Shown: one piece after another, positions 1 to 22,230 of the stretch
Position numbering within the stretch: the first letter of the stretch is position 1
Layout: each line of letters starts with the position of its first letter
Source: a virus
IMG/VR virus record: IMGVR_UViG_3300010413_000106
Coordinates: 1 to 34,080 of that record
Reading direction: 5' to 3' (one strand)
Length of the DNA: 34,080 nt
Program-made: the position numbers and the translations under genes
Notes under the pieces: generated by a model
What the model saw: only the letters and a program-made list of their open reading frames with translations
What the model was told of the DNA's origin: nothing
The model's database searches: none

Positions 1-3000
1 CGGAAACCCATCCGTTGAGACGGATCAAATTCACTTCTGTAGCTTGTGCCGAGGATCTTATCTACAATATCAGCGCTCTCCATGCCTGCGCCAGTAGCAA
101 CCCAATTTCTGATATCCTCTCCCCCTGGTCCAGCTACAGTTTTCAGCTCGAGAAGTCCAGCTTCCTGGAGAATACGTGACGCCTCACCGCCAAAATACTC
201 AATACCCTTGAACCCAGGTAACTCTTCTTTGAGAGCAGCTCCTAATCTTTTGTCGATTTGCTGACTTGCCTCACGCCAGTTGGGATCCCATTCGCCACCA
301 GCAACGAGCTTGTTGGACGCCTTTGCCAATACTCCAGGCTCGAGAGCTTCAACGTGTGAAACAGCTCGTTTTGCCCAATCCTCATATTGTTTTGGATCTG
401 CGGCAAACCTGAAGGTACCAACTTTATTTTCGAGGTCTTGCTCACCACTATCGAGACGACCAGGGCGAACACGCAAAGCCCTTTGAATAAGATCGCTAGG
501 TCTTGCTACGCCAACCTGACCAACATCAACAACACCAGGAATGTTGAGGCCAAGGCCAAGAGCAGATGAACCAACTACGGTTTCGTTTACACCAAGACCA
601 GCTAGTAGCCTCTCTTGTACCTGTTTCAGCTCGGCCTCTGGAATAAGCTCGGTGCCAGTACCAAGTCCTTTGTGGTATCTACTTGTTGCCCTACCACCCT
701 CGGCGGCTCTCTCGGCAATAAGGTCAACCATTCTGGTTGAGTAGCCGTAGATCATCTGCCCACCTTGAGCATTCTCTGCCATTCGTCCACCAGTGGCAAC
801 ATAATCAGACTGTGCCACATTCTCCATCTCAACATTGAGATGTCCCATAGACGCAGGCGCTCGGAAGATGTTCTCGCTACTAATACCAGCAAGATTTGCG
901 AGCATGTGCTCTTGAGAGGTTGGGATTGTACCGCCTAGTAACTGCATAGCAGTATCGGGCATAACCCGCTTCATGTTATCGATAAGCTCTTTGACTAACA
1001 AGCGTCCACCACGACCAATTTCCTGAGCCTCGTCAACAGATCCAACCTTCAGAACACCACCTCGGGACAACACATTGAGCTGTTGCCCCAATCCCCTCTC
1101 TGGATCGAGGGAGGCCAGCTTTTCCATACTCATAATACCAACAACAGGAGAGAACCCTTCTCTTAGTTGCTTAGTCTCGGGGTCGATGCTTCTAAACACA
1201 GCCTCTCTAAATGCCTGATGTACACGGTTGTACTCAGTCCTATCTTTACCCTCACCAGGATCACCAATTAGATTGAATACCTGAAGGCCACCGATGGGAT
1301 TGCCAGCATCGTCGTACATAACATTCCCTTCTGGATCTCTCAAGGCACCACGCTCTGCCAAATCCTTGGCGTGTTGCTCGTTTAGAGCCGTGAGAGGGGA
1401 TGTAACTATGGAGACTGGACTTAATTCAGCAGCACCCGCCATAGCCTCGGTCTTACCAAACCCAGGCCGTAGAGAACCCATTACACTCTCACCAGTAGCC
1501 AGCTTGTCCAACATAAGCTGAATTTTTTCGTTTCTATGGTAACGTCTACCTACAGGTATATCGCCAGGAGGCGGAGGCTCTGGAGGTATGTAGTCGTAGG
1601 ATGTAGGCGGAGGTGGACCACCTCCAGGTGGACCGCCACCAGCTCTACCACGTTGCGAGTAATATGATTGTCTATTTGAGAATGGGATGTGGCCCATTCT
1701 TCCACCAGAAGCCTGAATGTCAGTATAAATTACATAAGGATTGCTAGCTGGATTTGCGCTTTGTGGGATGACAGGAGATCTCCCACCATAATAGACGGCA
1801 TCAAGCCATCCTTGATAATCTCTAGGTTGTGCAGGAGACGCAGGCGGAGGAACGTGCTCCGTGCCATAGTCACCAAAGTATTGGTTTTCTCCTGGCACTT
1901 CCTCTTCCCAAGCTCCTGTTCTTGGATTTAAGGCCATGTATGTATCTCCTACTTCACGTTTTCGTAACTCCCATTCTTCCTCGGGAGGTACGTGAAAGGT
2001 GCCAGCGGCACCAGCATATATACTCTCTCCCCAAGATCCAGTATATCCAACAGCTTGACGTGCATAACCTGTGTGGGTAGGCGTCCTTGGGGCTCCGGCG
2101 ACGGCAGGCATACCCATAGGCCAATTCCTTATGGGTGTAGCAGGCCCGCCGTAAAATTGATTTTCTCCTAGTGCTTGTCCAGGGGGTAATAAAAGATTTG
2201 TTCCAGGCCCTAGTTGTTTAGGCGCTGGAGGTCGTTGGGTGACTGTGTATGCCCCCTCCACCCATCTATTTGGATCCTCTACGTAACTGTGTTGCTGACC
2301 AACATGAGCTGGTAGATAATAAGTTCTGTTTTGAATTCTACCCATGAGCACATTGGCTCTGTAGGCCTCATCAGCGGCATCTGATTGCGAGATACCGTAA
2401 TGAAAGTATGGTTTCGACCAATTCTCTCTGTATGTCTTGTCTCCAACTAGCTGATGTGGCCCCTGATATGCAGGTAGCTCTGGATAAAACTGCTCAATGG
2501 TAGGGAAGTTTTTGGCTTTGTATGTAGCTTGTTGTGCAGCATCGAATTGATAATCGAATTGTCCTTCTCTTGCTATATTGATAATCCAGTTGCCAATGCT
2601 CTTATTTTTAGCCGTTCTACTTGCAGCAAGGGTTTGATAACGCCAGTTGAATTGATCACTACCACGGAAATACTCGACCATCTCACCCGTGCTCTCCCAA
2701 GGTGCGGGATTGAGATTGCCCTCCTCGAGATATGAATAGTCGTATCTCTGTTTTGCCTCTCCGTATTTCCACGGTCTTGTTTTCCAAGGACCGTAAAATC
2801 CCTGCGCTCCATGTTCGCTTTCCCACATGGTACTTGGAACAAAAGGACGAAATGAAATTGACATGGCTTGCGGGCGACTTTCCTCGTACTCCATCGATCC
2901 AGTGGCCTCTTCCCATCTCCACAGTGAAGTTTTGAATATAAAGTCATCACCTCCCATGTAAGGGAGGTTGCTAGTTCTTCGTGGTGTGCTATAGATCTCT

Positions 3001-3584
3001 CCCCCTGCTCCTAGCATTAGAGGATTGCCAACACCAGGATTTGATGCTCTCTCTTGCGCTCTTTGTAATTCGGTAGCGCCATAGAACGATGTACGTGTGC
3101 CTCTTAGAAACTCGCTCTGTGTAGTCGGTTGGTACGCTCCTAGACTTTCAAGATATTTGTAGTTTAGATCTGAAAAGCTCTCGAAAAATCCCTGACCAGA
3201 TTGCGCCTGCTTGTGCGCCATCCCAATAAAGGCTGGATACATGGATCTCGCAAGATAATTCTGTACATCCCCAAAGGTTTGTGGCATCGGAACGCCAGCA
3301 GTCTCGAACTCTCCACGATACGGCTCGAAAAGGTTCTGAGGTGTGCTCTGTCCTGGAAGAGTGCGATAAGTCGGCATACGGAGAGCTTCGTCACCAAAAT
3401 GCTGGCGCATTTTCATGACCGTCAGCCTCATGGTGTCCTGCATAGGCGCACTGAAAGACAGCGCCTCATTCCTGAGTTGCTGTACAGTATCACCCCAATA
3501 ATCGAAATCGTCTCTCTCGAAGTCGCTATCTAAGGGATCATCAAGATAGTCGTCGCTATCCCAATCGTCTATTCCTCTTGGCAT
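1..3584 (-). CDS. Giant tape-measure-position protein with SF2 (RecQ-like) helicase domain; partial, runs off left edge
   Basis: I translated this frame codon by codon from the ATG at 3584 (upstream GAGAG) and met no stop in 1194 codons; the 3' end lies outside the window. Residues 1-640 are rich in Tyr, Gln, Pro and Gly and resemble nothing I recognise. A Gly/Pro-rich linker follows at about 640-675. Residues 690-1060 carry helicase motifs in order: Walker A RPGFGKT (K711), IMSMEKL, Walker B VDEAQE (D851, E852), GGTIPTSQ (motif III), QMIYGYSTRMVDLIAE (motif IV), SALGLGLNIPGV (motif V) and IQRALRVRPGR (motif VI, about 1033-1043). A charged segment follows. The gene comes straight after the tail-assembly-chaperone pair, where siphoviruses encode the tape measure protein. 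The helicase call is strong from the motifs. A tail or virion role is inferred from position only. It could instead be an injected polyvalent protein. Confidence 0.85.
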   Translation of the reverse strand, partial: MPRGIDDWDSDDYLDDPLDSDFERDDFDYWGDTVQQLRNEALSFSAPMQDTMRLTVMKMRQHFGDEALRMPTYRTLPGQSTPQNLFEPYRGEFETAGVPMPQTFGDVQNYLARSMYPAFIGMAHKQAQSGQGFFESFSDLNYKYLESLGAYQPTTQSEFLRGTRTSFYGATELQRAQERASNPGVGNPLMLGAGGEIYSTPRRTSNLPYMGGDDFIFKTSLWRWEEATGSMEYEESRPQAMSISFRPFVPSTMWESEHGAQGFYGPWKTRPWKYGEAKQRYDYSYLEEGNLNPAPWESTGEMVEYFRGSDQFNWRYQTLAASRTAKNKSIGNWIINIAREGQFDYQFDAAQQATYKAKNFPTIEQFYPELPAYQGPHQLVGDKTYRENWSKPYFHYGISQSDAADEAYRANVLMGRIQNRTYYLPAHVGQQHSYVEDPNRWVEGAYTVTQRPPAPKQLGPGTNLLLPPGQALGENQFYGGPATPIRNWPMGMPAVAGAPRTPTHTGYARQAVGYTGSWGESIYAGAAGTFHVPPEEEWELRKREVGDTYMALNPRTGAWEEEVPGENQYFGDYGTEHVPPPASPAQPRDYQGWLDAVYYGGRSPVIPQSANPASNPYVIYTDIQASGGRMGHIPFSNRQSYYSQRGRAGGGPPGGGPPPPTSYDYIPPEPPPPGDIPVGRRYHRNEKIQLMLDKLATGESVMGSLRPGFGKTEAMAGAAELSPVSIVTSPLTALNEQHAKDLAERGALRDPEGNVMYDDAGNPIGGLQVFNLIGDPGEGKDRTEYNRVHQAFREAVFRSIDPETKQLREGFSPVVGIMSMEKLASLDPERGLGQQLNVLSRGGVLKVGSVDEAQEIGRGGRLLVKELIDNMKRVMPDTAMQLLGGTIPTSQEHMLANLAGISSENIFRAPASMGHLNVEMENVAQSDYVATGGRMAENAQGGQMIYGYSTRMVDLIAERAAEGGRATSRYHKGLGTGTELIPEAELKQVQERLLAGLGVNETVVGSSALGLGLNIPGVVDVGQVGVARPSDLIQRALRVRPGRLDSGEQDLENKVGTFRFAADPKQYEDWAKRAVSHVEALEPGVLAKASNKLVAGGEWDPNWREASQQIDKRLGAALKEELPGFKGIEYFGGEASRILQEAGLLELKTVAGPGGEDIRNWVATGAGMESADIVDKILGTSYRSEFDPSQRMGF

Positions 3585-3605: not shown

Positions 3606-3639
3606 GGTAGGGCAGGTGGGAGGCGGGACCTACCCTACC
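3606..3639 (-). other. Inverted repeat before the giant gene
   Basis: GGTAGGG pairs with CCCTACC across a 20-nt interval that itself holds AGGT/ACCT, giving an 11-bp interrupted stem. It overlaps the stop codon of the chaperone extension and ends about 20 nt upstream of the giant gene's start. There is no T-run after it in the minus direction, so I do not call it a terminator. It may act on RNA stability or translation. Confidence 0.4.
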
Positions 3640-3920
3640 TTAGTCGTATTCCTCAAGGCTTCATCAACCTTCTTCCTTTCTTCGAGGCCGAAACGGATCC
3701 ATGTCATAATCCGTTTGAGGAGATACGGCATTTCTAAAGCATTGTCGTAAAGAGGCTTATCGTCATGCGCTAACTCTAACAGTTTCCCTAGCAAAAAGCT
3801 ACCCTCCCCTGTGTGAGCAAAGTCCTTGACGAAATTCTCCAGTTCTTCTAACTCTTGGATGAGGGATCTGTCTCTGTAGATCCTTCTTCCTCCTTCGGCT
3901 TGGTCAAGCGGGGACCCAAG
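3630..3920 (-). CDS. Tail assembly chaperone, frameshift extension (GT-like part)
   Basis: This frame is open from well inside the preceding gene and has no credible start of its own; the only candidate is a TTG at 3950. It is best read by -1 frameshifting from the upstream chaperone gene at the CCCTTTC site (3920-3926). Slippage there joins 120 residues of the upstream protein to 96 residues encoded here, making a product of about 216 residues. The extension is charged and helical (QELEELENFVKDF, LGLEERKKVDEAL-type segments). In lambda and many siphoviruses the equivalent gpGT binds the tape measure protein and recruits tail tube subunits. Assignment rests on gene order, the overlap and the slippery heptamer, not on sequence similarity. 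Confidence 0.7.
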   Translation of the reverse strand, partial: LGSPLDQAEGGRRIYRDRSLIQELEELENFVKDFAHTGEGSFLLGKLLELAHDDKPLYDNALEMPYLLKRIMTWIRFGLEERKKVDEALRNTTKVG

Positions 3921-4279
3921 AAAGGGTACACACTCTTTAGACCTAGCCAAAGTTCGCTAAGTAAGTCACCAGGGAATGTCTTGAGCACTTCCTGTTTCTC
4001 ATCCATGCTCATCTCGGGCTTTACGATGGGTGTTCCATCGTCACCAGGGATGTTCGTGCCAGCGAAGGACATAGCTAACTCGTACCATGCCGCCTCAAAA
4101 CCCATAGGCGCTAGTGATACGGGTCTACCATCGATCTCCACATGACGAACGTGGGCGTCTTGCCACTGTGCGTAAGTTACTTCATCCTTTGAAGTGATTA
4201 CCTTGAACTCCCAATACCACTCAGGTTCCTTCTCCAAAGTGTAACGCTTACTATCAAGTATAGCGTATTGACCAAACAT
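3848..4279 (-). CDS. Tail assembly chaperone (G-like)
   Basis: The 143-residue product starts at an ATG preceded by AGGAGGCATAAC, a strong ribosome binding site. It lies between the tail tube gene and the giant gene at the tape-measure position, which is the standard place of the gpG-type tail assembly chaperone. Its last 30 residues (PKEEEGSTETD region) are acidic and look like a disposable tail beyond the frameshift site at codon 120. The protein should be made in excess over the frameshifted GT form and be absent from the finished virion. Function is inferred from position and overlap architecture. Confidence 0.7.
   Translation of the reverse strand: MFGQYAILDSKRYTLEKEPEWYWEFKVITSKDEVTYAQWQDAHVRHVEIDGRPVSLAPMGFEAAWYELAMSFAGTNIPGDDGTPIVKPEMSMDEKQEVLKTFPGDLLSELWLGLKSVYPFLGPRLTKPKEEEGSTETDPSSKS
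3920..3926 (-). other. Programmed -1 ribosomal frameshift site CCCTTTC
   Basis: Read on the minus strand, the heptamer is in phase as C CCT TTC (codons 119-120 of the upstream gene), the canonical X XXY YYZ arrangement. After slipping, the ribosome reads CCC TTT CTT GGG in the -1 frame, which stays open to 3630. A short CTTGG/CCAAG stem just downstream could act as a weak stimulator. I see no strong pseudoknot. Confidence 0.75.
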
Positions 4280-4289
4280 GTTATGCCTC

Positions 4290-5330
4290 CTAGTATGCAG
4301 CGTGTTGATTTACCAGCGTGAATTTCACTGGACCATCGGTGTAGGTACCCCAATCCGTAGCAGTGAACATACCTGTGACAGCCATTACAATCTGACGTTG
4401 GGCTCTCAACGCTAGAGGTTGAGCAGACCAGTAGATGTTAGCATCGCCTGACGCTTGGTTAGCGCCATTTGCTTGTATCACCAGTTTGTAGTTAGCAGCG
4501 TCACTCAAGAATTCGAGTTTGATATCGGCCTCACGGAAGATATTTGCCGTCCACGCAGAACCACTAGCGGGGTCGTACATCATCTTGGTGTAGAGGGTAT
4601 CATCGTCGATCTTGACGGCTAAGTTCAATACATAGGTTCGGTGTACAATGTCCAGACCTTCGGGCACGTACTTACCTACAACGTATTGTTCGTCTAAGGG
4701 GATTACGGAACTGGCGACGAACGAGCCAGATAGAACACTTACGTCAGTTGCAGTCGGCAACTCGATGTCACTTACGGGTGCAAGTAACTGCGGGCCACCG
4801 TCAACGGCGCTTGCGGCACTCCACGTAGCAGTGGAAACCTTTGCAGGAAGTCCACCGATAACGCCCAAAGTACCAGTCATGAAGTTAGCACCTGAGAAGT
4901 TCAGGGATAACAGGTTCACACGGCAGTCTTGATACTGCTCACCCCATAAGTTTCCAGGGGCATAGCGGAAGGTGTACCAAGGTGCGGCGAACTCGTCAGT
5001 GCTTGATAATTTGAATGTGTGGGTGTTATACCCCGTTGTAGGGGTATCAGCAACCGTTGATGTTGCGCCAGTCATGGCGTAGAGGAAGTGTCCTAAGCTA
5101 TCTGGTCGAGGAATAAAATCAGCTCCACCACCAGCATTTACACCAACCTTCACCACACTCCGTTGCATGGCTCCGCCACCTACTTCGGGCGGAAGAGGAA
5201 GGAAGATGTTGTTTACACCAAAAGCACCACGGCTAAACAGGAGGTATTCAAACGCTCCATCAGTCGTGTTAGGTGTGCCTTCAGCAACCTGCTTTGCCAT
5301 TCCAATGAATGAGCCTTCAGCAGCAGTCAT
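4290..5330 (-). CDS. Major tail (tube) protein
   Basis: The 346-residue protein is rich in Ser, Thr, Gly and beta-prone segments and lacks membrane spans or coiled coils. It is followed directly by the tail assembly chaperone pair and preceded by connector genes, the usual position of the tail tube subunit. The ATG overlaps the upstream stop as ATGA. The length is somewhat above the 200-300 residues common for tube proteins, which leaves room for an extra decoration domain, perhaps the middle part around residues 180-215. Assignment is by synteny and composition. Confidence 0.7.
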   Translation of the reverse strand: MTAAEGSFIGMAKQVAEGTPNTTDGAFEYLLFSRGAFGVNNIFLPLPPEVGGGAMQRSVVKVGVNAGGGADFIPRPDSLGHFLYAMTGATSTVADTPTTGYNTHTFKLSSTDEFAAPWYTFRYAPGNLWGEQYQDCRVNLLSLNFSGANFMTGTLGVIGGLPAKVSTATWSAASAVDGGPQLLAPVSDIELPTATDVSVLSGSFVASSVIPLDEQYVVGKYVPEGLDIVHRTYVLNLAVKIDDDTLYTKMMYDPASGSAWTANIFREADIKLEFLSDAANYKLVIQANGANQASGDANIYWSAQPLALRAQRQIVMAVTGMFTATDWGTYTDGPVKFTLVNQHAAY

Positions 5331-6542: not shown

Positions 6543-7805
6543 TTAGTCCGTCGAGCCAGCGCTCAGATGAACCTCATACCACTCGGGGCGGAACAGTTGG
6601 AATTTGAACATACCACGCCAACCCACACGATTGACCATCAAAGCGTCATCGATCTTGGGCGGGGTGATTATGTGTGGGCGCTCGCCAACACCATAAACGA
6701 TGGACGGACCACCCATGAAGATGGATGCGTGAACGTCTTGAGCGACAGTCACATAGTCAGTATCGGCATGGTCTTTCAGCAATGGCTTATCAAAGGTGAG
6801 GCGGTTTGCGCCACCACTGTTGAGAGCCACAATTCGGCGAGTTTCCTGAGTACCATCGCTATCGAGTACCGTGGTACCAAGGGCTTGATTGTGGATTGTC
6901 ACAACGTCGCCAACGGCAAAGCCGGAGCTGTCAGCAACAGTTACGTAACGGGTTGAGGTGGACTGCCCAGGCGAGTAAACAGTGTCTACTGTAGCCGCAG
7001 CACCCTGACCAGGAACGGTAGCGCCAGACAAAGCATCCTGATTGGAGGCCAAGCCAGCGTTTTTGATCCACAGTCGGTTAGTTTTGATAAAGCGAACGCC
7101 ACCCCACTGACCAGCTTCACTCGTAAATTTCTTACCAGTGGACTGGTAGTTCTGTACGTCCAACCAGTTCGAACCCGCAGCGGTGCGGATATCGTGGATC
7201 ACACGAGGCGTGGTCACACAAACGATAGCCTGAGAGCCACCGTCAGTGTTGCTTGCCACACCAGGAACTTCATCTTCCTCGAGGTGGATCCGAGCCAGCT
7301 CTGCACGATCAGGATCGAACAGATCAGCGGCAGTCAAGGTTGCCCTTGAAGTAGCCGAGCCAGCATAGGTCGGATAGGGATGGGTCAACAGGGCATTGCG
7401 CATCAGGATGTCCAAGGTGTCAGTCAAAGATTGACCGATCTTGTCCATAACAATAGCGGGGATATTGCCGTTGTTGATGTAGTCGATGATATTGTGGTAA
7501 TCCGAGAACTTCAGGATGTCGTGGTAGACTGCTAGGTCTATTGTGACAGTCCGGCTGTCCAAGGCACCACCCTTGAACCAGATCACGTTCTCTGACGTGG
7601 AGTTCCAGTTAGGTTCCATGTCGTAAACTTCAGAGTATACGATCTGATTGGTTTTTACAGCGTTGAAATCTTCCTTAGTTACCGCGAAGGGAACAAGGAT
7701 GGACTTCATGCGCACGGTGTCTAAGAGCTTTTGTTCGTACCAAGTACGTTGCCAGTTGGGAACGGCACTGGTAAAGATAGCTCCGGTTTCATAGGCGTCA
7801 GCCAT
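6543..7805 (-). CDS. Major capsid protein (HK97 fold, N4-gp56-like)
   Basis: The 420-residue protein has the N-terminal pattern of the N4 gp56-like capsid family: a hydrophobic/aromatic opening (WQRTWYEQKLLDTVRMKSILVPFA), then LAVYHDILKFSDYH and a long helix (DKIGQSLTDTLDILMRNALL, the spine-helix type). Near residue 190 is a CVTTPRVIHDIR segment, and near residue 230 FTSEAGQWGGVRFIKT. Residues 265-345 look like an inserted beta domain (VTVADSSGFAVGDVVTIHN), which may protrude from the capsid surface. It has a strong AGGAGGAATACGTC site before its ATG and directly follows the scaffold gene. Confident from family resemblance and synteny. Confidence 0.85.
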   Translation of the reverse strand: MADAYETGAIFTSAVPNWQRTWYEQKLLDTVRMKSILVPFAVTKEDFNAVKTNQIVYSEVYDMEPNWNSTSENVIWFKGGALDSRTVTIDLAVYHDILKFSDYHNIIDYINNGNIPAIVMDKIGQSLTDTLDILMRNALLTHPYPTYAGSATSRATLTAADLFDPDRAELARIHLEEDEVPGVASNTDGGSQAIVCVTTPRVIHDIRTAAGSNWLDVQNYQSTGKKFTSEAGQWGGVRFIKTNRLWIKNAGLASNQDALSGATVPGQGAAATVDTVYSPGQSTSTRYVTVADSSGFAVGDVVTIHNQALGTTVLDSDGTQETRRIVALNSGGANRLTFDKPLLKDHADTDYVTVAQDVHASIFMGGPSIVYGVGERPHIITPPKIDDALMVNRVGWRGMFKFQLFRPEWYEVHLSAGSTD

Positions 7806-9146: not shown

Positions 9147-9470
9147 CTATGCCGGTGCGGCTAGAGGTTCCTCGACCTCAAAGGAATGTATGTCAGTAGA
9201 CCATGTACCTAGAGGTAGGTTGACAATTCCCTGATAATACCAGATACCAGCGGTATCAAGATCGCCATCGACTGTTATGTAGTGTATCTGTCCATCGGAT
9301 CCATCCGTGACAAATGCGGCGGTCTTGTCAAAGGTAGTGTTATCTGGTTTCTGAAAACGTATTACCTTGCTTATGCAAACAGAACAATCGACGATGGCTT
9401 TGTCTTGATCTTTGACTGTGCCACCTATCGATGTCCCTATGTCGTTGATAAAAATATCACCAATCGCCAT
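9147..9470 (-). CDS. BppU-N-like small structural protein
   Basis: The 107-residue protein opens MAIGDIFINDIGTSIGGTVKDQD, then has VIRFQKPDNTTFDKTAAFVTDG and IWYYQGIVNLPLGTWSTD. This beta-sandwich pattern (KPDGT, FVTDGSDG, W..Q..V.LP.G.W.S) resembles the N-terminal domain of phage baseplate upper proteins, usually found next to receptor-binding proteins. It starts at a TAATG overlap with the preceding giant repeat protein, so it is translationally coupled to it. Likely part of the adsorption apparatus. Confidence 0.6.
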   Translation of the reverse strand: MAIGDIFINDIGTSIGGTVKDQDKAIVDCSVCISKVIRFQKPDNTTFDKTAAFVTDGSDGQIHYITVDGDLDTAGIWYYQGIVNLPLGTWSTDIHSFEVEEPLAAPA

Positions 9471-12031
9471 TATAACTCCAGTATCAAATCGCTATCCACG
9501 TTATCCGTAATGTAAAGCGCTGGATCTTTTTCTTGAGTGATGTACAAATGTTCCTCCAATGACGATGTGGTTATGTAAAGGTCATGCCACACCTTATCTC
9601 TCCAAGTGCCACTCACCCAAATGTCTCCAGCTATCGCCAGAGCTACGGCGAAGACTGCTTGCGGAGATATTGTGACAGACCCAAATATTACGGAAGGATC
9701 TACGGTACTAACAACCGATGTGGCAACACCAGTTAGCGCTAGGCTTCCATGTACCACAGTCGGATCGATTGTACTTGCCACAGAGGTAATACTCTGTGGC
9801 GTAACGGATAGGGATCCCTTCACCACTAGGGGTGCTACGCTATCCGTGATCGCAAACGACGGTTGCGGTGTTACGGAGGTACTGCCAAGTAGTACATATG
9901 GCCCGACGCTAGACGCAACTCCCGAAACTGTCGCTGTTACTGTTGTGCTACCCAACACAGTCGTTGGGTCAGCTTTGCCTGCTATCGTAGATACTGGTGT
10001 AGGAGTGATTATCACTCCGCCAGTTATTACGGATGGGTCTACAGAGCTGGCTACGGAGGAAACGGATAAAGGTGTAACTGTAACCGAGCTCTGTAAGACC
10101 GTTGGATCCGCAGACGATGCAACCGTATATACAGGGGATGGGGTTGCAGTCGTCGCATTCAAGTGTACAGTCGGCGCTACAACACTTGAAGGAGCAGTCG
10201 CCGGAGAAGGAGTAACATCAATGTCTCCCGCTTCCACATTGGGACCGGCGATCCTAGCAACCGAGCTCACGAATGCGCCGCTTACCGTCACGGAGCTCAG
10301 TATAACCGTTGGGTCTACCGTAGATGCTATTACCGAAACCGCATGTTGCCACGTGACTACAGTAGGCCCACTGGTGGACGCTATTGCACTACTATTAGCT
10401 GTAACAGTAGTGGAACCTAGTACCACGACAGGATTTGAACGATCTGAGATGGAAGAGGCTGCCGTTGGTGTAGCAGTCACAGAGGACTGGATTACTGATG
10501 GGTCAGCTTTTCCAACTACGGCGCTTGCTGGCGTGGGGGTTATGAGAACATCGCCCTCCGTTACTTCTGGTCCGAAGGAAGATGCTATAGCACTTGAAAT
10601 AGCAGGCGTAATTTGTAAAGAACTGAGTACCACTGTCGGTGGTACACTTACAGCTATAATATTACCATAAATCGGCGTAATTGTCAAGTCCCCAAGTACA
10701 ACAATCGGGTCATTTTTACCAGAAATCGCATAAACTGGTGCAGAAGTGACTGTTTGTGACCCTAAAACAGTCGTGGGATCAGCTTTTGAGGCAATTGCAG
10801 TAGCAGGGGAGGGGGTAAATGTAACATTGTTGACTACGGTAGGATCAACAGATGAGGCTATCGCACTTACTGGAGATGGAGCTACAACAGTCTCGAAGAC
10901 TGGATCAACTCCCGTGGCTCGAGCCGTAGCTGGTGCGGGGGCAATGATTTTCTCGGATACAGTGGGCACACTGATCCTAACATAGCTGACCTCGAGGCGC
11001 CTCTGAGCTGATCTCGTTGAGGACGCTATAGCTGAAACAGGTGTAGGCGCTAGTGTAAGACTTGACTGTATTACAATCGGTCCGAATGAGGAACTTATAC
11101 CCGAGACAGGGGTCGGGGTAAAGGTTACGTCTCCAGATCCAACATCAACAGTAGGATCGACACTGACTGCAATAGCAGATACCGAGGTCGGTGTCAGTGT
11201 TATACTACTCCTGACTACAGTGGGATCTATCCTGCTTGCTATTGCGCTTGAGGGAGAGGGGGTGTATGATGTATCGCCCTGGACTACTATCGGACCAGCA
11301 TTATTACCAATGGTATTTACCGCAGTCGGAGAGACAGTTACGGAACTCTGTACGACTGTGGGGTTTACAGAACTTGCGATTGCATTGATTGGAGATGGCT
11401 CTATCGGAGGAGACGAAATCACCACGGTAGGATCAATCGAGCTAACGATTGCATTCCTTGCAGTGGGTGTCAGTGTGATCGAGCCGAGAACTACTGTGGG
11501 GTTGTTTCTGTTGGCGATGGTGTTTATCGCCGCTGGAGTGACCGTCACATCACCAGCAGGTGCATCAGGCGTCTCCAGGACTGCATGAGAACACTCTAAG
11601 AAGTTACCAGCAGTCGCGTAACTAACATACACACGGATGCGCAAGTCGCCATAGTTGGTGATATTGTCTGCTTCCGTGCCCGTGAGGGTAAAGCTGTACT
11701 CCGCGAAACCCGTTGTTAGTGTAGTGTTGTCGTATGACGCCGAGCCAATAGTCGTGGTGCCTTGAATTAGGTAAACAGTAGCGTTTAGTCCTTTATTGGT
11801 GGCATTGACCCGCAATCTGTATTTTACGACGTGCCCTGTAGAGCTCTCTGGATCGGTAATACTACCAAGAGCTACCTCACACGTGGCTACCTGGTTGGCA
11901 TTCGATGATACGTAATCGCTATCTGATGGCGTTACCTCATCGAGCTTGTCGTAAGCCGTGGTAGGCGTAGTTGGCGTTACCGTGAACTGAGTTAGCGTGA
12001 TGTCGCTGGATGGTCTGCCGTACTGTGTCAT
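9470..12031 (-). CDS. Giant beta-repeat fibre-like protein 2
   Basis: The 853-residue protein has three parts. Residues 1-160 form a beta-sandwich-like domain (DEVTPSDSDYV, GHVVKYRLRV, LTGTEADNITNYGDLRIRVYV) that clearly matches the C-terminal domain of the preceding giant protein. Residues 163-790 are about 28 tandem copies of a 21-23 residue unit with consensus near TVTPTPVSAIASSVDPTVVLGS. A C-terminal 60 residues (GDIWVSGTWRDKVWHDLYIT, LYITQEKDPALYIT, LYITDNVD) carry three LYIT repeats. It starts at TAATG with the previous gene's stop. The repeat array suggests an elongated fibre or stalk exposed on the virion. Repeat 8 is degenerate and carries a basic insertion. No enzymatic motif seen. 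Confidence 0.75.
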   Translation of the reverse strand: MTQYGRPSSDITLTQFTVTPTTPTTAYDKLDEVTPSDSDYVSSNANQVATCEVALGSITDPESSTGHVVKYRLRVNATNKGLNATVYLIQGTTTIGSASYDNTTLTTGFAEYSFTLTGTEADNITNYGDLRIRVYVSYATAGNFLECSHAVLETPDAPAGDVTVTPAAINTIANRNNPTVVLGSITLTPTARNAIVSSIDPTVVISSPPIEPSPINAIASSVNPTVVQSSVTVSPTAVNTIGNNAGPIVVQGDTSYTPSPSSAIASRIDPTVVRSSITLTPTSVSAIAVSVDPTVDVGSGDVTFTPTPVSGISSSFGPIVIQSSLTLAPTPVSAIASSTRSAQRRLEVSYVRISVPTVSEKIIAPAPATARATGVDPVFETVVAPSPVSAIASSVDPTVVNNVTFTPSPATAIASKADPTTVLGSQTVTSAPVYAISGKNDPIVVLGDLTITPIYGNIIAVSVPPTVVLSSLQITPAISSAIASSFGPEVTEGDVLITPTPASAVVGKADPSVIQSSVTATPTAASSISDRSNPVVVLGSTTVTANSSAIASTSGPTVVTWQHAVSVIASTVDPTVILSSVTVSGAFVSSVARIAGPNVEAGDIDVTPSPATAPSSVVAPTVHLNATTATPSPVYTVASSADPTVLQSSVTVTPLSVSSVASSVDPSVITGGVIITPTPVSTIAGKADPTTVLGSTTVTATVSGVASSVGPYVLLGSTSVTPQPSFAITDSVAPLVVKGSLSVTPQSITSVASTIDPTVVHGSLALTGVATSVVSTVDPSVIFGSVTISPQAVFAVALAIAGDIWVSGTWRDKVWHDLYITTSSLEEHLYITQEKDPALYITDNVDSDLILEL
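9640..11545 (-). repeat. Tandem array of about 28 diverged 63-69 bp repeats
   Basis: This DNA array encodes the TVTPTPVSAIASSVDPTVVLGS-type units of the 853-residue protein. Units are diverged at the DNA level, and the conserved core is the codons for (V/I)(D/N)PTVV. The array also creates long antisense open frames that are not genes. Confidence 0.85.
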
Positions 12032-15000
12032 TAGTAGGCCTCTATCTCTACAAGCAGATCAGCATAATCTACAATGCTATCGGCTTGAGCAGATGATAAA
12101 GTTTCCTCGCCGTCTGTCCATGTGGCGGGAACATCTGTGTAAGTCCACTCAGCAACCGTCGTGGTATTCTCTTTTAGCCTTACCTTCATGTTGGTAGTGC
12201 CAGCATCGGGGTTTTTCCGATAGCGGAACTTCACCTTATGGAGGACGTTAGTTCCTGGATCAAGTACATCTTGGAACGTCGCTCGGTAGATGGAGGAACC
12301 AGGATCCTCAGGCGATTTGATATAATCGTTATCGTCTGGTGTAACCTCGTCTATGGACATCCATAGGTTTGTATTCTGGTTTAGCTCATTCAACCAGAGC
12401 CCTACAAGATCGTCACCGTTGGGGTAGTATGTATCCTCTCCAGCAAACACATCGCCAGTTATACTGTATGTCACACAAGTGACCGCTGTTGGTGTCAAGG
12501 TGACATTGTTTATAACAGTTGGGTCTATTGAGCTTGCTATCGAGTGTACAGGGGTCGGAGTGTATGAAATATTTCCGTGAATAACCACTGGATCGACTTT
12601 GGCGGCGATTGACGAAACAGCAGTGGGTGATAGCGTCAGCGAACTTTGTACAACAGTTGGGTTCACACTCGAGGCGATTGAGCTGACAGATACGGGTTGT
12701 ATGACGATGTCACCCGCCAATACATCTGGACCAACAGAGCTTGTTATCGCATATACCGCAGTAGGTGTTGCCGTTGTTGAGCTTTGTAATACAGTGGGAC
12801 CGACAGAACTTCCGACGCCGGAAACTATTCCAGTGAGTGTCAGGCTTGACTGGATAACAAACGGATCAACCGATGATACTACCGATGATACTACCGCAGG
12901 GGTGTAAGTGATACTACTCTGCACGACAGTCGGATCCACGCTATCCACAATAGCAAAGCCGGCAGTCGGAGACAGGGTTATACTACCCTGAATGACAGCG
13001 GGATTTACGCTGGATGCTATAGATGATACCGCAGAGGGAGATGCCGTGGTTGAGGATTGAACTACAGTTGGATCTGACTTACCAGCAACCGCACTGACTG
13101 CACTAGGTGATACTTGTACCCCTCCACCTAATACAAATGGATCAGCGCCGGTAGCTCTTGCCCACACAGCACTTGGGGACGCAGTGACCGATCCTAAGAC
13201 CACGGTTGGAGCTACCGAACTCGTGATTACATTGGTTGCGCTTGGGCTAAGAGTTATACTACCTAAAACTACATCAGGATCAGCTTTATTACCTATAGCT
13301 GATGCTGGTGTAGGTGTTGCAGTAGTCGAACCCAAAACTGTAGTTGGGTTTACGCTGCTCGACACACTACCCACAGGCGAAGGAGTAGCAGTCAGCGAAC
13401 CAAGTATGACAGTCGGATCGACCTTATTAGTTATTGAAGAAACAGGGGTTGCGGTGACAGTCGTGTCACCTAAGACTACTGTCGGATTGACAGTAGAGCC
13501 AATCGTATTTGTTGCGGTTGGCGTTAGAGTAAGACTGCCTTGAATTACCGTTGGATCTATAGAACTTGCTACAGATGTCACGGGCGATGGTGCTACAAGT
13601 ATATCTTTACTACCAAATGTGTACTGTGCTATCGGATAACCCATTCCAGACCATGTGGTAATCCGATCAAGGGCTGCCTTCACGGAAGAGATTATCACAG
13701 ATGGATCTATGGAACTAGCTATGGCATTTCTGGCACTTGGCACTAAGGTAAGACTACCTTGAACAACAGCAGGATCAACCTTATTAGTTATTGAGGAGAC
13801 AGGTGTTGTAGTGACAGTTATATCACCCAGGATAACTGTTGGATTGACAGTAGAGCCAATCGCATTCGTCGCAGTTGGGGTGATCGTTAGAGAGCCAAGT
13901 ACAACAGTGGGATCTACTGCGGTTGCTTTAGCCTCACACGGAATATTGCCACCCTCCCAATCGTCAATGGTAACAGTGTTATCGTAAATTTTTACGCCAA
14001 CATAGCCACTGGCGATGTATTCAGATGTATCTGTATAGCTAAGAATTTCAATCCCGTTTCTGTAAACTTTGATGGTATAGTCAATGATTTCTGCACGAAC
14101 AACGTCGCCAACCTGGAAGGCAATATCGCTTACGTAGTCCAGTACAGACCCAAAAGATGAGCCATTGTAGTAATAGATATTTGCTTGTTTTACTGGTGGA
14201 GCGTATGTTGGCTGATTACCAGTAAATGTTATGACATAAAATCTGTCAGTGCCTCCTGCCCCCTCTGCACGTAGTACAAGACCACAGTCGTTAGCAGAGA
14301 TAGTTTGCAAGACTAGCTGTGCATATTCACCTGCGAATGCAGATCCACCAGTATATATCGAGTAACTATCACCACTTCCTACATTGTTATATCCTAAACC
14401 GCTACCGTTCTTTCTTACACCATAGAAATCGGCGTGGGTAGTCCAGTTGCCAGTAAGTTCGCCCTCTGAGCCGGTGAAGTCTTCTTTGGCAGACAAGACA
14501 ACTGTGACACTACCTAGTACAACAGTTGGATCTACTTTATTGGTTATTGTGGAGACTTGTGTGGGAGTGACTGTGACACTCCCCAATACAGTAGTTGGGT
14601 TTACACTAGAGGCTACCCCTGTCACAGCGGCGGGTGTGACTGTCTCATCGCCTCCAGAGATATCTACAGTAGGATCTACCTTGCCTGTGACTGCACTTGC
14701 GGGAGATGGCGAGAGTAAAAGGCCAAGCACATACTCGTTGAACCACATCGGGCCAGTATCTCTGCCCTCAGCAGGGTCATTTTCAACGATATAGCCGACA
14801 ACTACCTCGCCAGATGAGTTTGTATAATAGCGTAGTTGCTGGAAGTCAATGGTGACATCGGTGCCTGTGTCCAGAGTAATGCCTGTTGTCCACGATCCAT
14901 TGTATGTGGCTAAGAACAGATCTTCATTAGTGATATCAGAGTAGATAAGATAAACATTACCTTGACCGTCACCAGTGGCTTGAGCAGATAGCATATTGCT

Positions 15001-17064
15001 ACCACCCTCTGCTCGGTTGACGGTTATCGATCCTATCTGATTTGCAGTGCCCAAACTGCCATTCGTAGCAATCCTGTACCACATTGTATTATCCGAGTTG
15101 CGGAAGACAAACATAACTTTCTCGTCACCGCTATCGTCCCAATAAACAGGTTGAGCAATACCCTTCGAGTTGTTGTTGTTGGCACCAGACGCAGCGGAGA
15201 TAGCCGACCTGCCAGATAGTGTCCCTCCAGATGACAGGTTCCTATACCACATGTTACCTGAGCCGTTAGTAATTTCCTGGTAGCCAATATGCGTCAGGTT
15301 ACTTGCGCCAACAGTAGCAGTTACCCATGTCCAGTTTGTTGTCGCTTCAGCGTCGAGGTTATTTGCACTCCCCCATGACCCTGAGGTTCTGCGTTTGTAC
15401 GATATACGCTCGTAACCACCTACAGTCTCACGGTAAAAGCACCATGCGTCTCCATCAGAGAGCACCACTCCTGCTACGGCTTGGTCAGTACAGGTTATAC
15501 CTGTGACTATCGCCTGCCCAACAGTCTGCCACGTATCAGGATTGGAGGAGGCGCTCGACATATTGAATGTGTGATAATAGACTGATGCACCTTTGTGTTG
15601 AAAGATATGGAGTGTGTCACCAATTTGCTGGACTTGACCACTCTCGAAATCGCTGTAGGTTGAGCTTGGCCTGTTAGTTCCATCTATCTCAAACCATGTG
15701 GCACCATCATCCGTTGACTTGACCATGATTGGCGTATTTCCAGCGCCACCGGCCTTGGACGTGTGCTCCATCGGGAAATATAAGTTTCCGTTATCGTCTT
15801 GGAATGGGCCACAACTTTGCGGGCTCTCAATGAAACATCCACCGACTAACCCGTAAGTGTAATTGGCTTCAAATGAAATGGCTCTGTAGTTGTCTAGGAG
15901 TGTGCCATCGCTCTCTACTACTCTGATCTCGACAGTATCGCCGTCATCCAGCTCTCCGTAAGTAGAGGGTGTATCATAACGGCGCATGAGCATGAGCGCC
16001 CACTCAAACTCAGTGTGCTCATTTTGTAGGGTGTCACTTGTAGTTAGATTGTCGTTCTCTATAGCGTGACCAGCAGTAAACGTCTCCGATGACCCTGAGA
16101 GCAGGTTTGTAGTGGCGTCATTATCTAAGAACTGCGCTGAAAAGTCAGCGATGACGGCAGTGTGGTTGTCATTTAGATGGACACCACAATCGTACCAAGT
16201 GCCGCCGTTGATACGGAACTGCAATTTGTACGAATGGGTTTCGGCTACCCCGTTATTCTCCTCGATCTCAAGACGTAAACGGAATGGTACACCCATATCG
16301 ATTGTGGTGGGTGCAACGTTGAGTGCGGCCAACCAACCACCATCGGTGTTTAGTGCAGTGCTATCGTCCCTAAAACGCCAGTTTGTACAGTTCAGACCAA
16401 CAAAGCTATCAATGACTGTGGGATCCACCTTGTTACATATCGCACTTGCGGGCGTTGGGGTTGCTGTGGTGGACGACTGTAGTATCGTGGGGTTTACCCG
16501 ACCAGCTATTGTAGTGACAGCGCTTGGCGTGACAACTACAGGCGGATTGTTTACATTGATCGTGGGATAGTTAGTGTATGTGAAGGTTTGCCCATCGACC
16601 ACCCTAAGCTGTATGCTTTCTCCACCTGTGAACTGTCCATCGACAAGGTATATTGTGGCTACCACCTCGATATAGACATCAGCGTCTACGTTTGAGTTAG
16701 TAGCTGGATCGGTGGCGCTGTTGATACAAGCGGCGTTAGTGGTATCGTAGGGAGTGCTTGAGGATAGCCTCTGCGAGGTGTCCTCGTCATGAGTGTTGTA
16801 TGTGCTTTCGTAAATTCTTACATCGGTAGTTCCGCTGAGTGGTGTCCATCCCCCACTGTCAATGTTGAACTCGAAGCTAAATGGCAAAACGCCAGCTTTA
16901 GAGTTTGTATTGTGACACTCTACTCTGACCTGTACACGACCAGAAGTTCCAACATCCATGTCGAGAGCCTGGTTGTTGCCAGTACCCAACGCGGTAGAAG
17001 ACGCCTCATTAGCGTCGTCTGAGAAAAATCTATAATTGTCTTGGTTGTATGATGGTTGGGTCAT
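12031..17064 (-). CDS. Giant modular fibre/adsorption protein 1 with beta-propeller-like and repeat domains
   Basis: The 1677-residue protein reads as modules. Residues 1-170 and 225-400 are two related beta domains (FEFNIDSGGWTPL / LQFRINGGTWYDC; SIQLRVVDGQTF / VEIRVVESDGTLL). Residues 405-785 look like a beta-propeller with a BNR/Asp-box unit (STDDGATW, 450-457). Residues 870-1040 resemble a concanavalin/LamG-type carbohydrate-binding fold. The 21-23 residue repeat occurs about 26 times: twice between the first modules, then around and after the LamG-like part to about 1545. Residues 1550-1677 repeat the domain that opens the next gene. It starts at TAATG with the preceding stop. The architecture fits a glycan-binding adsorption protein. 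I see no clear sialidase active site. Confidence 0.75.
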   Translation of the reverse strand: MTQPSYNQDNYRFFSDDANEASSTALGTGNNQALDMDVGTSGRVQVRVECHNTNSKAGVLPFSFEFNIDSGGWTPLSGTTDVRIYESTYNTHDEDTSQRLSSSTPYDTTNAACINSATDPATNSNVDADVYIEVVATIYLVDGQFTGGESIQLRVVDGQTFTYTNYPTINVNNPPVVVTPSAVTTIAGRVNPTILQSSTTATPTPASAICNKVDPTVIDSFVGLNCTNWRFRDDSTALNTDGGWLAALNVAPTTIDMGVPFRLRLEIEENNGVAETHSYKLQFRINGGTWYDCGVHLNDNHTAVIADFSAQFLDNDATTNLLSGSSETFTAGHAIENDNLTTSDTLQNEHTEFEWALMLMRRYDTPSTYGELDDGDTVEIRVVESDGTLLDNYRAISFEANYTYGLVGGCFIESPQSCGPFQDDNGNLYFPMEHTSKAGGAGNTPIMVKSTDDGATWFEIDGTNRPSSTYSDFESGQVQQIGDTLHIFQHKGASVYYHTFNMSSASSNPDTWQTVGQAIVTGITCTDQAVAGVVLSDGDAWCFYRETVGGYERISYKRRTSGSWGSANNLDAEATTNWTWVTATVGASNLTHIGYQEITNGSGNMWYRNLSSGGTLSGRSAISAASGANNNNSKGIAQPVYWDDSGDEKVMFVFRNSDNTMWYRIATNGSLGTANQIGSITVNRAEGGSNMLSAQATGDGQGNVYLIYSDITNEDLFLATYNGSWTTGITLDTGTDVTIDFQQLRYYTNSSGEVVVGYIVENDPAEGRDTGPMWFNEYVLGLLLSPSPASAVTGKVDPTVDISGGDETVTPAAVTGVASSVNPTTVLGSVTVTPTQVSTITNKVDPTVVLGSVTVVLSAKEDFTGSEGELTGNWTTHADFYGVRKNGSGLGYNNVGSGDSYSIYTGGSAFAGEYAQLVLQTISANDCGLVLRAEGAGGTDRFYVITFTGNQPTYAPPVKQANIYYYNGSSFGSVLDYVSDIAFQVGDVVRAEIIDYTIKVYRNGIEILSYTDTSEYIASGYVGVKIYDNTVTIDDWEGGNIPCEAKATAVDPTVVLGSLTITPTATNAIGSTVNPTVILGDITVTTTPVSSITNKVDPAVVQGSLTLVPSARNAIASSIDPSVIISSVKAALDRITTWSGMGYPIAQYTFGSKDILVAPSPVTSVASSIDPTVIQGSLTLTPTATNTIGSTVNPTVVLGDTTVTATPVSSITNKVDPTVILGSLTATPSPVGSVSSSVNPTTVLGSTTATPTPASAIGNKADPDVVLGSITLSPSATNVITSSVAPTVVLGSVTASPSAVWARATGADPFVLGGGVQVSPSAVSAVAGKSDPTVVQSSTTASPSAVSSIASSVNPAVIQGSITLSPTAGFAIVDSVDPTVVQSSITYTPAVVSSVVSSVDPFVIQSSLTLTGIVSGVGSSVGPTVLQSSTTATPTAVYAITSSVGPDVLAGDIVIQPVSVSSIASSVNPTVVQSSLTLSPTAVSSIAAKVDPVVIHGNISYTPTPVHSIASSIDPTVINNVTLTPTAVTCVTYSITGDVFAGEDTYYPNGDDLVGLWLNELNQNTNLWMSIDEVTPDDNDYIKSPEDPGSSIYRATFQDVLDPGTNVLHKVKFRYRKNPDAGTTNMKVRLKENTTTVAEWTYTDVPATWTDGEETLSSAQADSIVDYADLLVEIEAY
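12480..13930 (-). repeat. Tandem array of about 20 diverged repeats in giant protein 1
   Basis: This array encodes the C-terminal run of (V/I)DPTVV units of the 1677-residue protein. Further units of the same family lie at about 14470-14700 and 16390-16540. Together with the next gene there are about 54 copies. Confidence 0.85.
12810..12823. repeat. TTCCGACGCCGGAA (copy 2 of a dispersed near-palindrome family)
   Basis: This is one transition away from the perfect palindrome at 6133 and 32459. Its reverse complement is exactly the copy at 26202-26215. It lies within codons for SGVGS of the repeat protein. Confidence 0.75.
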
Positions 17065-19694: not shown

Positions 19695-21077
19695 TTATAG
19701 ATTGTTTTTTGTATCCATCTTGAGCTGATCATAGTAGTCCCAAGCATGGTACACTTTACCATTGTAGTGTGCCCTATCGTTCTCTATGGGCACAATTTGC
19801 GGAGGCATGTGTTCGTGGTCGTTATATTCAACGACGGTGAACCCTAATTGCCAGTTTGTTTCTTCATTCGCCCCTGGTACTCTTCCATCAATGTGACAGA
19901 GGCACCCCCCTGTTGTTGCTGAAATGGAGTGAGCGCCTTCTCCGTCTATCTTCAACCTTGTAGCCTGCTCTCTCCTGTGGATGTGACCGAAGATCCGTGA
20001 TACGTTGGATTTTTCAACCACGTTACCAGCAGTACCGCCAGGTTTCGCCGAGACGGTATTGCCATGCTCAACCAAGAGATCTGGTCGTAACCAAATCTTG
20101 TTGTTGGGATAACCACCATGCCACTTCCACCCAAGGTTTTTCAAGTCCAACAGATAAGGTACTGATGTTACATCCTCTCCATCGAACTGAGTAGCCTTTC
20201 TAAGCCTGAGCATGTGTTGAGCGTGAATAAAGTAAAATTCGGGTATTCGTAGCTCATGGTTTCCCTCGAGGTAGTCAAGCTCACTGTCTGGTGCAAGCAT
20301 AGCGATTTGCCCCAGGAACCAACCCGCCTCATAAAGCATGGGTTGAGTGGTGAACCTCATCTCTGGTGATCTCACGTACTTCGTTGACCATTCGGCACTG
20401 TCTATTCCATCTCCTCCGTGGATAATACGATCAAAGTAGTTGTCTTTTATCACAGATAGGATGATACTGAGCGCCTTGCGGTCATGGTATGGTGTGAGCT
20501 CGCCGGTGTATAGATCTCGCTCAAACCCGAAATGAGTATCGGAGATGTAGAGAGCCCTCTTGAACTCACTCTGTGTATACTTGGGCGGTCTGACTGGCTT
20601 TATGGTGAAGGAAACTGGAACAATAATCGGCTTTACGGCTACTGGTTTCCTTCTCACGAAACTACCGTACACAGAGTACATGATCTCGGTATTGATACCG
20701 CCTTGATCAATCTTGTGTCCAGTGATACGACCCTCGTCGAAGATCATATCCTGATCAACGTCTTTGCGGTATCCTTCCCATGTCTTTATCTTGAATTCCT
20801 CAAGCAACCAGACATCTTCGTCGATGCCACACGCCTCAATCAAGTCCTGTTCGCTCTTGATCTTAGCTGTAACAGCTCGTACCTCAGTGTAATTCCCCTT
20901 GGTTTTTATGTCTATCTTCTCTTCGTCCTTCAAGATAGCCTCCTTCTCTCGTTGTTGGGCTCGGAAGATCAATCCGTGCATCTTGTTAAAGTTCAGATTT
21001 AGTTTTTTCGCTAGTGCTCTCTGGCTAAGGCCGCTTCTTTTCCAGATAGACAGTAGCTCGTCACCGTTGTATTTCAT
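19695..21077 (-). CDS. HTH-calcineurin-like metallophosphoesterase
   Basis: The 460-residue protein has an N-terminal helix-turn-helix (WKRSGLSQRALAKKLNLN, residues 12-29) and a C-terminal calcineurin-type phosphoesterase core at about 175-370. All five metal motifs are present: ISDTHFG (D180, H182), GGDGID (D223), GNHE (N273, H274), VEHGN (H338) and GHIHRRE (H365, H367). It should hydrolyse phosphomono- or diesters with two metal ions, and the HTH suggests a DNA-bound or DNA-templated substrate. It overlaps the methyltransferase stop by 17 nt. Similar HTH-phosphoesterases occur in phages without a settled function; a role in DNA end processing or in countering host defence is speculation. 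Confidence 0.85.
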   Translation of the reverse strand: MKYNGDELLSIWKRSGLSQRALAKKLNLNFNKMHGLIFRAQQREKEAILKDEEKIDIKTKGNYTEVRAVTAKIKSEQDLIEACGIDEDVWLLEEFKIKTWEGYRKDVDQDMIFDEGRITGHKIDQGGINTEIMYSVYGSFVRRKPVAVKPIIVPVSFTIKPVRPPKYTQSEFKRALYISDTHFGFERDLYTGELTPYHDRKALSIILSVIKDNYFDRIIHGGDGIDSAEWSTKYVRSPEMRFTTQPMLYEAGWFLGQIAMLAPDSELDYLEGNHELRIPEFYFIHAQHMLRLRKATQFDGEDVTSVPYLLDLKNLGWKWHGGYPNNKIWLRPDLLVEHGNTVSAKPGGTAGNVVEKSNVSRIFGHIHRREQATRLKIDGEGAHSISATTGGCLCHIDGRVPGANEETNWQLGFTVVEYNDHEHMPPQIVPIENDRAHYNGKVYHAWDYYDQLKMDTKNNL

Positions 21078-22230
21078 AACCTAGCTCTTCTGCGAGTGTA
21101 GCGAAAGCAAGCGCAGCAGTAATTGGGACGACGCCGTTTCCCACTGCTCGTAATCGCTCAACTCGATTGGAGTATATGGATCCGTCCATCCAGGGATCCA
21201 CCCCATCAACCACTCCGCAAATCGCTGGTTCAAGCGTCGGTTTTTCGCTATGCCATTCATCGCTCGAGGGGCTTGGCGGCCAAGAAGGGAATTCGTTGGT
21301 GTCTCTCCAATCCCTGTATCTTTCCAGTCCCTCGTTGTTGGTGTCATCCACTTCTCCAGTTCTTGCTTTGTCTGTGGATAACTTGGATCCCTTAGCGTCT
21401 GTTCTGCCAGTCCAGAATGTCTCAAGACGTTCCTCCCATCCTTGCGGATCATCTCCTCTGGAGATCTCGGTTGAATTGCGCCTCCGTCCGTTGCCGTTGG
21501 GGTTAGCCATTGATCTGACCCGCATGGAGCCCAATACTTCGCTTTGTGTGGGAGGTCTTCTTCCTGACCCTTGATTGATCTCCCACTCTCCCCCTTCCAG
21601 TCCCTCGACTGCGGGGTAGGCCAATTCGCTGATTGATCCCTCAGCTTGATCTTGGGCGCTTCCGCCTCTGCGTACTTCGGATCGTCGAACCATTTCACTC
21701 CCCCCTCTCCGTCCGAGGCGCTTGGAGTGCGCCATGATAAAGAGCCGTCTTCGTTGATGTGGTGCGCCAACTTCTTCCGCTGAGAATACTCCTGCCGCAA
21801 CTTCGTAACCCATTCGTTGTAGCTCATCCCGAACATCTCGAAATCCGAGCTTGAGATGGTTTTCGACATTCTCGAAAAAGCACCATTCTGGCTCGACTTC
21901 TCTACAAATTCGGGCGATATGAGGCCAAAGGTGCCTTGGGTCATCCTCTCCCTTCTGTTTTCCTGCAACGGAGAAGGGTTGACAGGGATATCCTCCAATA
22001 ATGCAATCCACTTTGCCACGCCAAGGGACGCCATCGAAGGTTTTACAATCCGTCCAAATAGGCGCTTTATCCATAACTTCGTCTTCCATCCTCGAAACCA
22101 AGACCTCGATGGGGAAGGCTTCGACTTCAACATAACATACTGTTCGAGAAGACGGAACTGCCAGTCTGACGCCGAGATCAAGTCCTCCGACGCCAGCGCA
22201 GAGTGATATTGTGTTGAAGGTAAAATCCAC
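21061..22230 (-). CDS. DNA (cytosine-5) methyltransferase
   Basis: The 389-residue protein carries the C5-methyltransferase motifs in order: motif I SLCAGVGGLDLG (9-20), motif IV GGYPCQPFS with the catalytic C83, motif VI ENV (120-122), motif VIII QRRR (159-162), a variable target-recognition region at about 170-350, and motifs IX-X RLRAVGNGVVPITAALAF at the end. The variable region contains recurring Ala-Asn/Asp-rich segments (LAYPAVEGLEGG, MANPNGNGRR, DDTNNEGLER). The start is a GTG at 22230, served by GGGGAGG in the end of the preceding gene. It probably protects phage DNA from host restriction; the target is not readable. A second frame is open through the whole gene. Confidence 0.93.
   Translation of the reverse strand: MDFTFNTISLCAGVGGLDLGVRLAVPSSRTVCYVEVEAFPIEVLVSRMEDEVMDKAPIWTDCKTFDGVPWRGKVDCIIGGYPCQPFSVAGKQKGEDDPRHLWPHIARICREVEPEWCFFENVENHLKLGFRDVRDELQRMGYEVAAGVFSAEEVGAPHQRRRLFIMAHSKRLGRRGGSEMVRRSEVRRGGSAQDQAEGSISELAYPAVEGLEGGEWEINQGSGRRPPTQSEVLGSMRVRSMANPNGNGRRRNSTEISRGDDPQGWEERLETFWTGRTDAKGSKLSTDKARTGEVDDTNNEGLERYRDWRDTNEFPSWPPSPSSDEWHSEKPTLEPAICGVVDGVDPWMDGSIYSNRVERLRAVGNGVVPITAALAFATLAEELGYEIQR

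Follow-up and report, generated by a model that had tools for sequence, protein, structure and literature searches.

A RecQ-like helicase region within a predicted giant tail tape-measure protein of uncultured phages

The window (the whole stretch of DNA analysed here, a linear 34,080-base IMG/VR contig fragment) opens at its left edge with a tail locus in which a helicase is encoded where a tape measure would be expected. We may wonder whether this helicase is part of the tape measure or the product of a separate gene, and, if it is part of the tape, whether it is cargo or mere filler. The frame that carries it, 3–3584(−), which starts with an ATG, runs through 1194 codons with no stop before the contig edge, as a first, sequence-only reading of this DNA had described. 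Relatives were fetched by alignments of the tube, the capsid and the helicase, and from GTDB genomes.

The tail locus at the left edge

The features of the locus, all on the minus strand, are the following.

4290..5330 (−): tail tube protein (PF18906, E 1e-12; phrog_290, E 5e-14)
3848..4279 (−): tail assembly chaperone, first part (gpG-like), assigned by its position and a conserved −1 overlap
3630..3950 (−): tail assembly chaperone, −1 frame extension (gpGT-like), in −1 overlap with 3848..4279
3920..3926 (−): slippery heptamer CCCTTTC for a −1 frameshift, in the right phase within the chaperone overlap
3..3584 (−): predicted giant tail tape-measure protein, N-terminal 1194 residues (homology to the complete giant ORFs of relatives L005 and L051; 0 Cys)
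2949..3479 (−): N-terminal region, residues 36–212, weakly common to the tape-measure N-termini of relatives (blastp, profile)

The capsid gene (6543–7805), two small head–tail genes, the tube gene (4290–5330) and the overlapping −1 pair precede the giant ORF in this order. A slippery heptamer lies at the equivalent place in L005 (CCCTTTT) and L006 (CCCTTTC), and the heptamer CCCAAAA is found in L016, L019 and L003. The proposal that the giant frame follows a tail-chaperone frameshift pair is well supported by the −1 overlap, the in-phase CCCTTTC and these heptamers, which places the next gene, directly after the tube and the frameshifted chaperones, at the tape-measure position. Indeed, the order tube, frameshifted chaperones, giant ORF and short distal-tail-like gene is common to the window (which ends inside the giant ORF) and its relatives, and is also that of the tail genes of TP901-1. 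The giant ORF directly follows the chaperones in the relatives too, the complete ones having 1863 to about 3600 residues. Among GTDB contigs the tube gene was found in three only (L044, L045 and L046), all of them from Anaerolineae MAGs, which suggests that the host group is probably Anaerolineae (Chloroflexota).

The N-terminal part had been described as rich in Tyr, Pro and Gln, and residues 1–640 do contain 6.9% Tyr, 8.6% Pro and 6.6% Gln. Aromatic periodicity was not found in these residues, so the Tyr/Pro-rich part is itself not the repeat zone; strong single transmembrane helices are mostly absent according to hydropathy. As a direct query the window protein retrieved no relative from viral contigs, INPHARED or the PDB, and its N-terminal 600 residues have diverged from those of L005 almost beyond alignment. 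By blastp, residues 36–212 match L005 with 24% identity over 183 residues (E 9e-6), and a profile that leaves the window out recovers the N-terminal region with an E-value of 2e-4, compared with 0.1 for the best shuffled decoy. The ORF 3–3584(−) is most likely the front half of a giant tape measure with a helicase cargo, cut before its C-terminus.

Several other observations concern the genes of the window and of a close neighbour. The contig L002 (IMGVR_UViG_3300010413_000234), with a 68% identical capsid, has fibre-like genes at the equivalent place and is missing the tube, the chaperones and the giant ORF, so that the tail block has been moved or replaced. In the window, a C5 cytosine methylase (PF00145, E 2e-33) is almost wholly overlapped by an ORF in a second frame, 21061–22230(−) and 21081–22256(−). 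Synechococcus phage Yong-M2-251 has kept both (34% and 28% over about 400 residues), and the annotated gene is one of the frames in one record and the other frame in that of a near relative. The locus looks like a true overprinted gene pair, whose two products are perhaps comparable to two-subunit methylases such as M.EcoHK31I. Two further ORFs, 9470–12031(−) and 12031–17064(−), situated between the portal/methylase block and the capsid gene, encode proteins of 853 and 1677 residues, consisting largely of repeats of about 20 residues of the type SAIASSVDPTVVLGSVTVTPTPV and matching no Pfam or PHROG family. Finally, near the terminase gene, 28121–29017(−) encodes a 298-residue protein that weakly resembles a glycosyl hydrolase family (PF11790, score below the cut-off).

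The helicase region

The helicase occupies the latter part of the visible protein, with the following features.

3..1517 (−): helicase region, SF2 and RecQ-like, beginning near residue 690 and reaching the edge (identity with L005; PDB profile matches to RecQ)
1449..1463 (−): motif I (Walker A), GFGKT, residues 708–712 with K711 (PPGWGKT in the alignment with L005; also aligned with RecQ)
1023..1034 (−): motif II (Walker B), DEAQ, residues 851–854 (motif coordinates)
549..566 (−): motif V, SALGLG, residues 1007–1012 (motif coordinates)
459..485 (−): motif VI, QRALRVRPG, residues 1034–1042 (QRAMRLR in L005, QRAMRAR in L018)

Motifs I, Ia, II, III, IV, V and VI are found in order on two RecA-like lobes, the lobes being those of a low-confidence model. 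The SF2 motif set previously read from the sequence was confirmed with exact coordinates: K711, DEAQ at 851–854 and motif VI at 1034–1042. The only Pfam match to the region, PF00270 (DEAD), is sub-threshold, with 20.9 bits for a curated cut-off of 26 bits (E 3e-4). Profile and structure searches of this part both put RecQ-family helicases on top. A profile of three sequences (window, L005 and L018) compared with the PDB gives bacterial RecQ as the best matches (E 2.3e-6, 4.5e-6 and 7.1e-6). The AlphaFold model of the region is of modest quality and low confidence (pLDDT 55, pTM 0.40); with it, Foldseek ranks structures of RECQL5, BLM and RecQ first, at low TM-scores that make this result supporting only. 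In the alignment with E. coli RecQ the motifs are in register up to motif V, motif VI being misplaced by the automatic alignment.

The designation 'RecQ-like' given by the sequence-only reading holds for the two RecA-like lobes and does not extend to membership of the RecQ family. RecQ helicases unwind DNA 3′ to 5′ and carry, behind motif VI, a Cys4 zinc-binding domain along with RQC and HRDC. No such Cys4 domain follows motif VI in the visible part, and there is no cysteine at all in the 1194 residues of the window, in L005 or in L051. We therefore describe the region as an SF2 core of RecQ-like type and leave it outside RecQ proper. It shares with the RecQ family its motifs and its closest PDB sequences and folds, and differs from it by the missing Cys4 domain in the visible part, a divergent motif VI (QRALRVR), large inserts and the lack of cysteine.

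Residues 695–1194 of the window align with residues 789–1258 of L005 up to the last residue before the edge (31% over 518 residues, E 2e-46). Since L005, L018 and L006 conserve the helicase core, its presence is not a matter of chance. A second scan with the helicase profile returned the L005 and L018 contigs again and nothing else, indicating that this SF2 type is rare in the collection. Could the helicase-like region nevertheless be a degenerate spacer, a structural filler of the tape measure with no enzymatic role? In favour of a filler, tape measures can gain or lose long segments (PMC5099701), helicase families give faint matches, and motif I of L018 is weakened to GSQKT, without the glycine before the lysine, which implies that not every helicase copy need be active. 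Against this, motifs I, Ia, II, III, IV, V and VI are all kept between the window and L005 in spite of the divergence of the N-terminal 600 residues, and the unrelated cargo of sister proteins (UvrD, JAMM, HExxH and NADAR) retains its catalytic signatures. We regard a filler as unlikely, and a functional helicase cargo as the better reading.

Helicase and predicted tape core in one chain of the relatives

The window stops inside the ORF and the C-terminus lies outside the contig, which leaves room for a free-standing, non-structural helicase gene at the tail locus, with the true tape measure as a separate gene past the edge. The complete relatives speak against it. In L005, a single ORF of 2367 residues contains, without interruption, an N-terminal domain, the helicase (789–1258), a Gly/Ala hydrophobic zone and a long helical core (about 1726–2290). 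L051 has a single ORF of 3620 residues with the helicase at about 1394–1880 and the core at about 3015–3552, together with a JAMM motif, and in L015 and L025 a UvrD helicase and the tape core share one uninterrupted ORF. In these four complete relatives, on separate contigs, helicase and core thus belong to a single ORF that directly follows the chaperone genes. Downstream of it, L005, L015 and L025 have a short gene or domain resembling a distal tail protein, and the complete relatives showed no other candidate for a tape measure there. A chimeric assembly was also considered and is rejected because independent contigs show the same helicase–tape fusion. Moreover, the N-terminus of the window protein matches tape-measure N-termini, and its 1194 residues are free of cysteine, compared with 24–62 TGY codons in the other frames of the same DNA. 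A separate tape measure beyond the edge, as the earlier reading had allowed, is consequently very improbable, and its other option, a helicase belonging to the tape measure, is favoured by L005 and L051, which carry both in one chain.

The C-terminal core of L005 is common to L015, L025, L019, L020, L016, L017, L027, L051 and L045. Is this core a tape? A tape measure is a virion protein whose length sets that of the tail. In the relatives (the window being cut before it) the giant proteins display several tape-measure traits: they are very long, with a helical core, a hydrophobic zone and 18-residue aromatic repeats. For the core, AlphaFold predicts helices 91 and 143 residues long, and their pLDDT values mostly exceed 80. 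Residues 1470–1589 of L005 form a 120-residue zone with 73% AGILVFM; such a zone is present in most complete relatives (67–73%), compared with 70% in TP901-1. Aromatic repeats of 11 or 18 residues are a trait of some tape measures (PMC5099701). In the core, lag 18 is among the top two aromatic lags in all ten sequences, with per-sequence z from 2.4 to 6.2; the pooled z of 14 for the period of 18 is inflated by kinship. Among the controls, the TP901-1 tape measure shows aromatic lags of 11, 22 and 33 and T5 pb2 shows none, so that the trait is not universal among tape measures. Neither the window ORF nor the core matches a Pfam or PHROG tape-measure family, which reflects the limits of these libraries and not a defining biology. 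Foldseek with the model of the tape core matched no PDB fold, as expected for a lone rod.

Cysteine content provides a second link between the helicase and the tape. The 21 giant proteins (about 37,500 residues) contain a single cysteine (L012, residue 140); another, in L051, lies ahead of the start codon and was discounted. Neighbouring long genes of the same phages encode 5.1–6.4 Cys per 1000 residues, and tail tubes 1.9 per 1000. The helicase cargo alone has no cysteine in 2729 residues, compared with 11 cysteines in RecQ of E. coli and 6 in UvrD. The TGY codons in the other frames show that base composition is not the reason for this absence. The tape measures of lambda (L068), T5 (L065) and TP901-1 (L064) are likewise free of cysteine, as is the part of Mu gp42 (L069) that was read. 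The helicase thus shares a limit on composition that is typical of tape measures, and we take it as evidence for one cysteine constraint acting on enzyme and tape alike, a constraint deduced with four controls, which are few. It plausibly arises from storage in a stretched state and refolding after passage. As a side remark, the cysteine-free tape measures of lambda, T5, TP901-1 and, for the part read, Mu possibly reflect a general rule.

Variable cargo, its proposed delivery and known systems

A predicted helicase-bearing tape measure is thus recurrent in this uncultured phage clade, and the cargo at the locus varies. The SF2 helicase is found in the window, L005, L051/L018 and L006, and UvrD, above the curated cut-off, in L015 and L025. 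L027/L023 carry YpsA/SLOG and Prok-JAB matches that are below the cut-off, yet a JAMM-like motif is present; L013 has NADAR above the cut-off in an ORF that ends before any core, and L016, L020, L038 and L042 contain HExxH motifs (motif only, with no family match). One chain may hold several enzymatic domains (helicase and JAMM motif in L051, SLOG and JAMM in L027), the window showing the helicase alone. Searches for UvrD and Helicase_C in the records of twelve relatives revealed no copy outside the giant ORF. The presence of other enzymes at the same place suggests that the tail ruler may double as an enzyme delivery vehicle.

We consider it likely that the ORF of the window is the N-terminal half of the giant tape measure of a long-tailed phage, with the RecQ-like SF2 helicase as a built-in, mid-chain cargo that would be packaged, ejected with the DNA and active in the host. 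Tape measures point their N-terminus to the head and have their C-terminus at the tip of the tail (PMC5099701), and the giant protein would sit in the tail tube in the same way, its C-terminus at the tip. The cargo domain would probably be unfolded or stretched in the tube, because the lumen of a tail should be too narrow for a helicase of about 55 kDa in its folded state. The giant protein would exit ahead of or together with the DNA, its hydrophobic zone helping to form a conduit, and the cargo would refold beyond the membrane. The refolded helicase could then spend ATP to translocate on or unwind the incoming phage DNA, with a benefit for DNA entry, for early replication or for protection. 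Release of the cargo may be due, in some relatives, to a peptidase within the giant protein itself.

The cargo might instead act in the envelope or in virion assembly, and not on phage DNA in the cytoplasm. Known tape-measure enzymes, muramidases and peptidases, do act on the cell wall, and several relatives contain HExxH motifs. SF1 and SF2 helicases, however, require both ATP and nucleic acid, which co-occur in the cytoplasm, and two helicase superfamilies recur at the giant-ORF locus; an envelope role is highly unlikely, and we retain a cytoplasmic one. A broader and more tentative proposal is that the tape measure of this clade could be a general delivery chassis. Its swappable central module (RecQ-like or UvrD helicase, SLOG, NADAR, or JAMM/HExxH peptidase) would be threaded through the tail to act in the host before phage gene expression, and the near-total ban on cysteine across the chain, cargo included, would mark travelling enzymes.

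Wall-degrading domains are already known in tape measures; with ATP-dependent helicases and enzymes of the polyvalent type in its chain, the ruler would become a device for delivering proteins. The giant ORFs offer concrete test proteins for the passage of enzymes through a narrow tail tube, and cysteine-free enzyme domains in long tail ORFs are a suggested signature of injected enzymes in uncultured phages. Our literature search, made without subscription papers and preprints, found no paper on a helicase in a tape measure, and the tape core, the RecQ-like part and the UvrD part have no match among named phage records (INPHARED).

The giant ORFs resemble lambda gpH, the TP901-1 TMP and T5 pb2 in their position after the tube and frameshifted chaperones, their long helices, their hydrophobic zone and their lack of cysteine, and the core shares aromatic 11/18 periodicity with the TP901-1 TMP. 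They differ from these siphophage tape measures by being two to four times longer and by carrying an ATP-dependent helicase, or another enzyme not directed at the wall, in mid-chain. Polyvalent proteins also combine many disparate enzymes (helicase, JAB-type) per chain, are thought to be injected with the DNA and often carry peptidases that may separate their parts (Iyer et al. 2017, PMC5512222). The text of that study makes no mention of tape measures, and here the chain would be the tail tape measure itself. Sle1 and Tme, in which a tape-measure-like coiled coil is joined to an effector module, are ejected through the tube of contractile injection systems (PMC13277306). These are effectors of phage-derived contractile systems, whereas the protein described here would be the tape measure of a phage, with its helicase or peptidase cargo upstream of the core.
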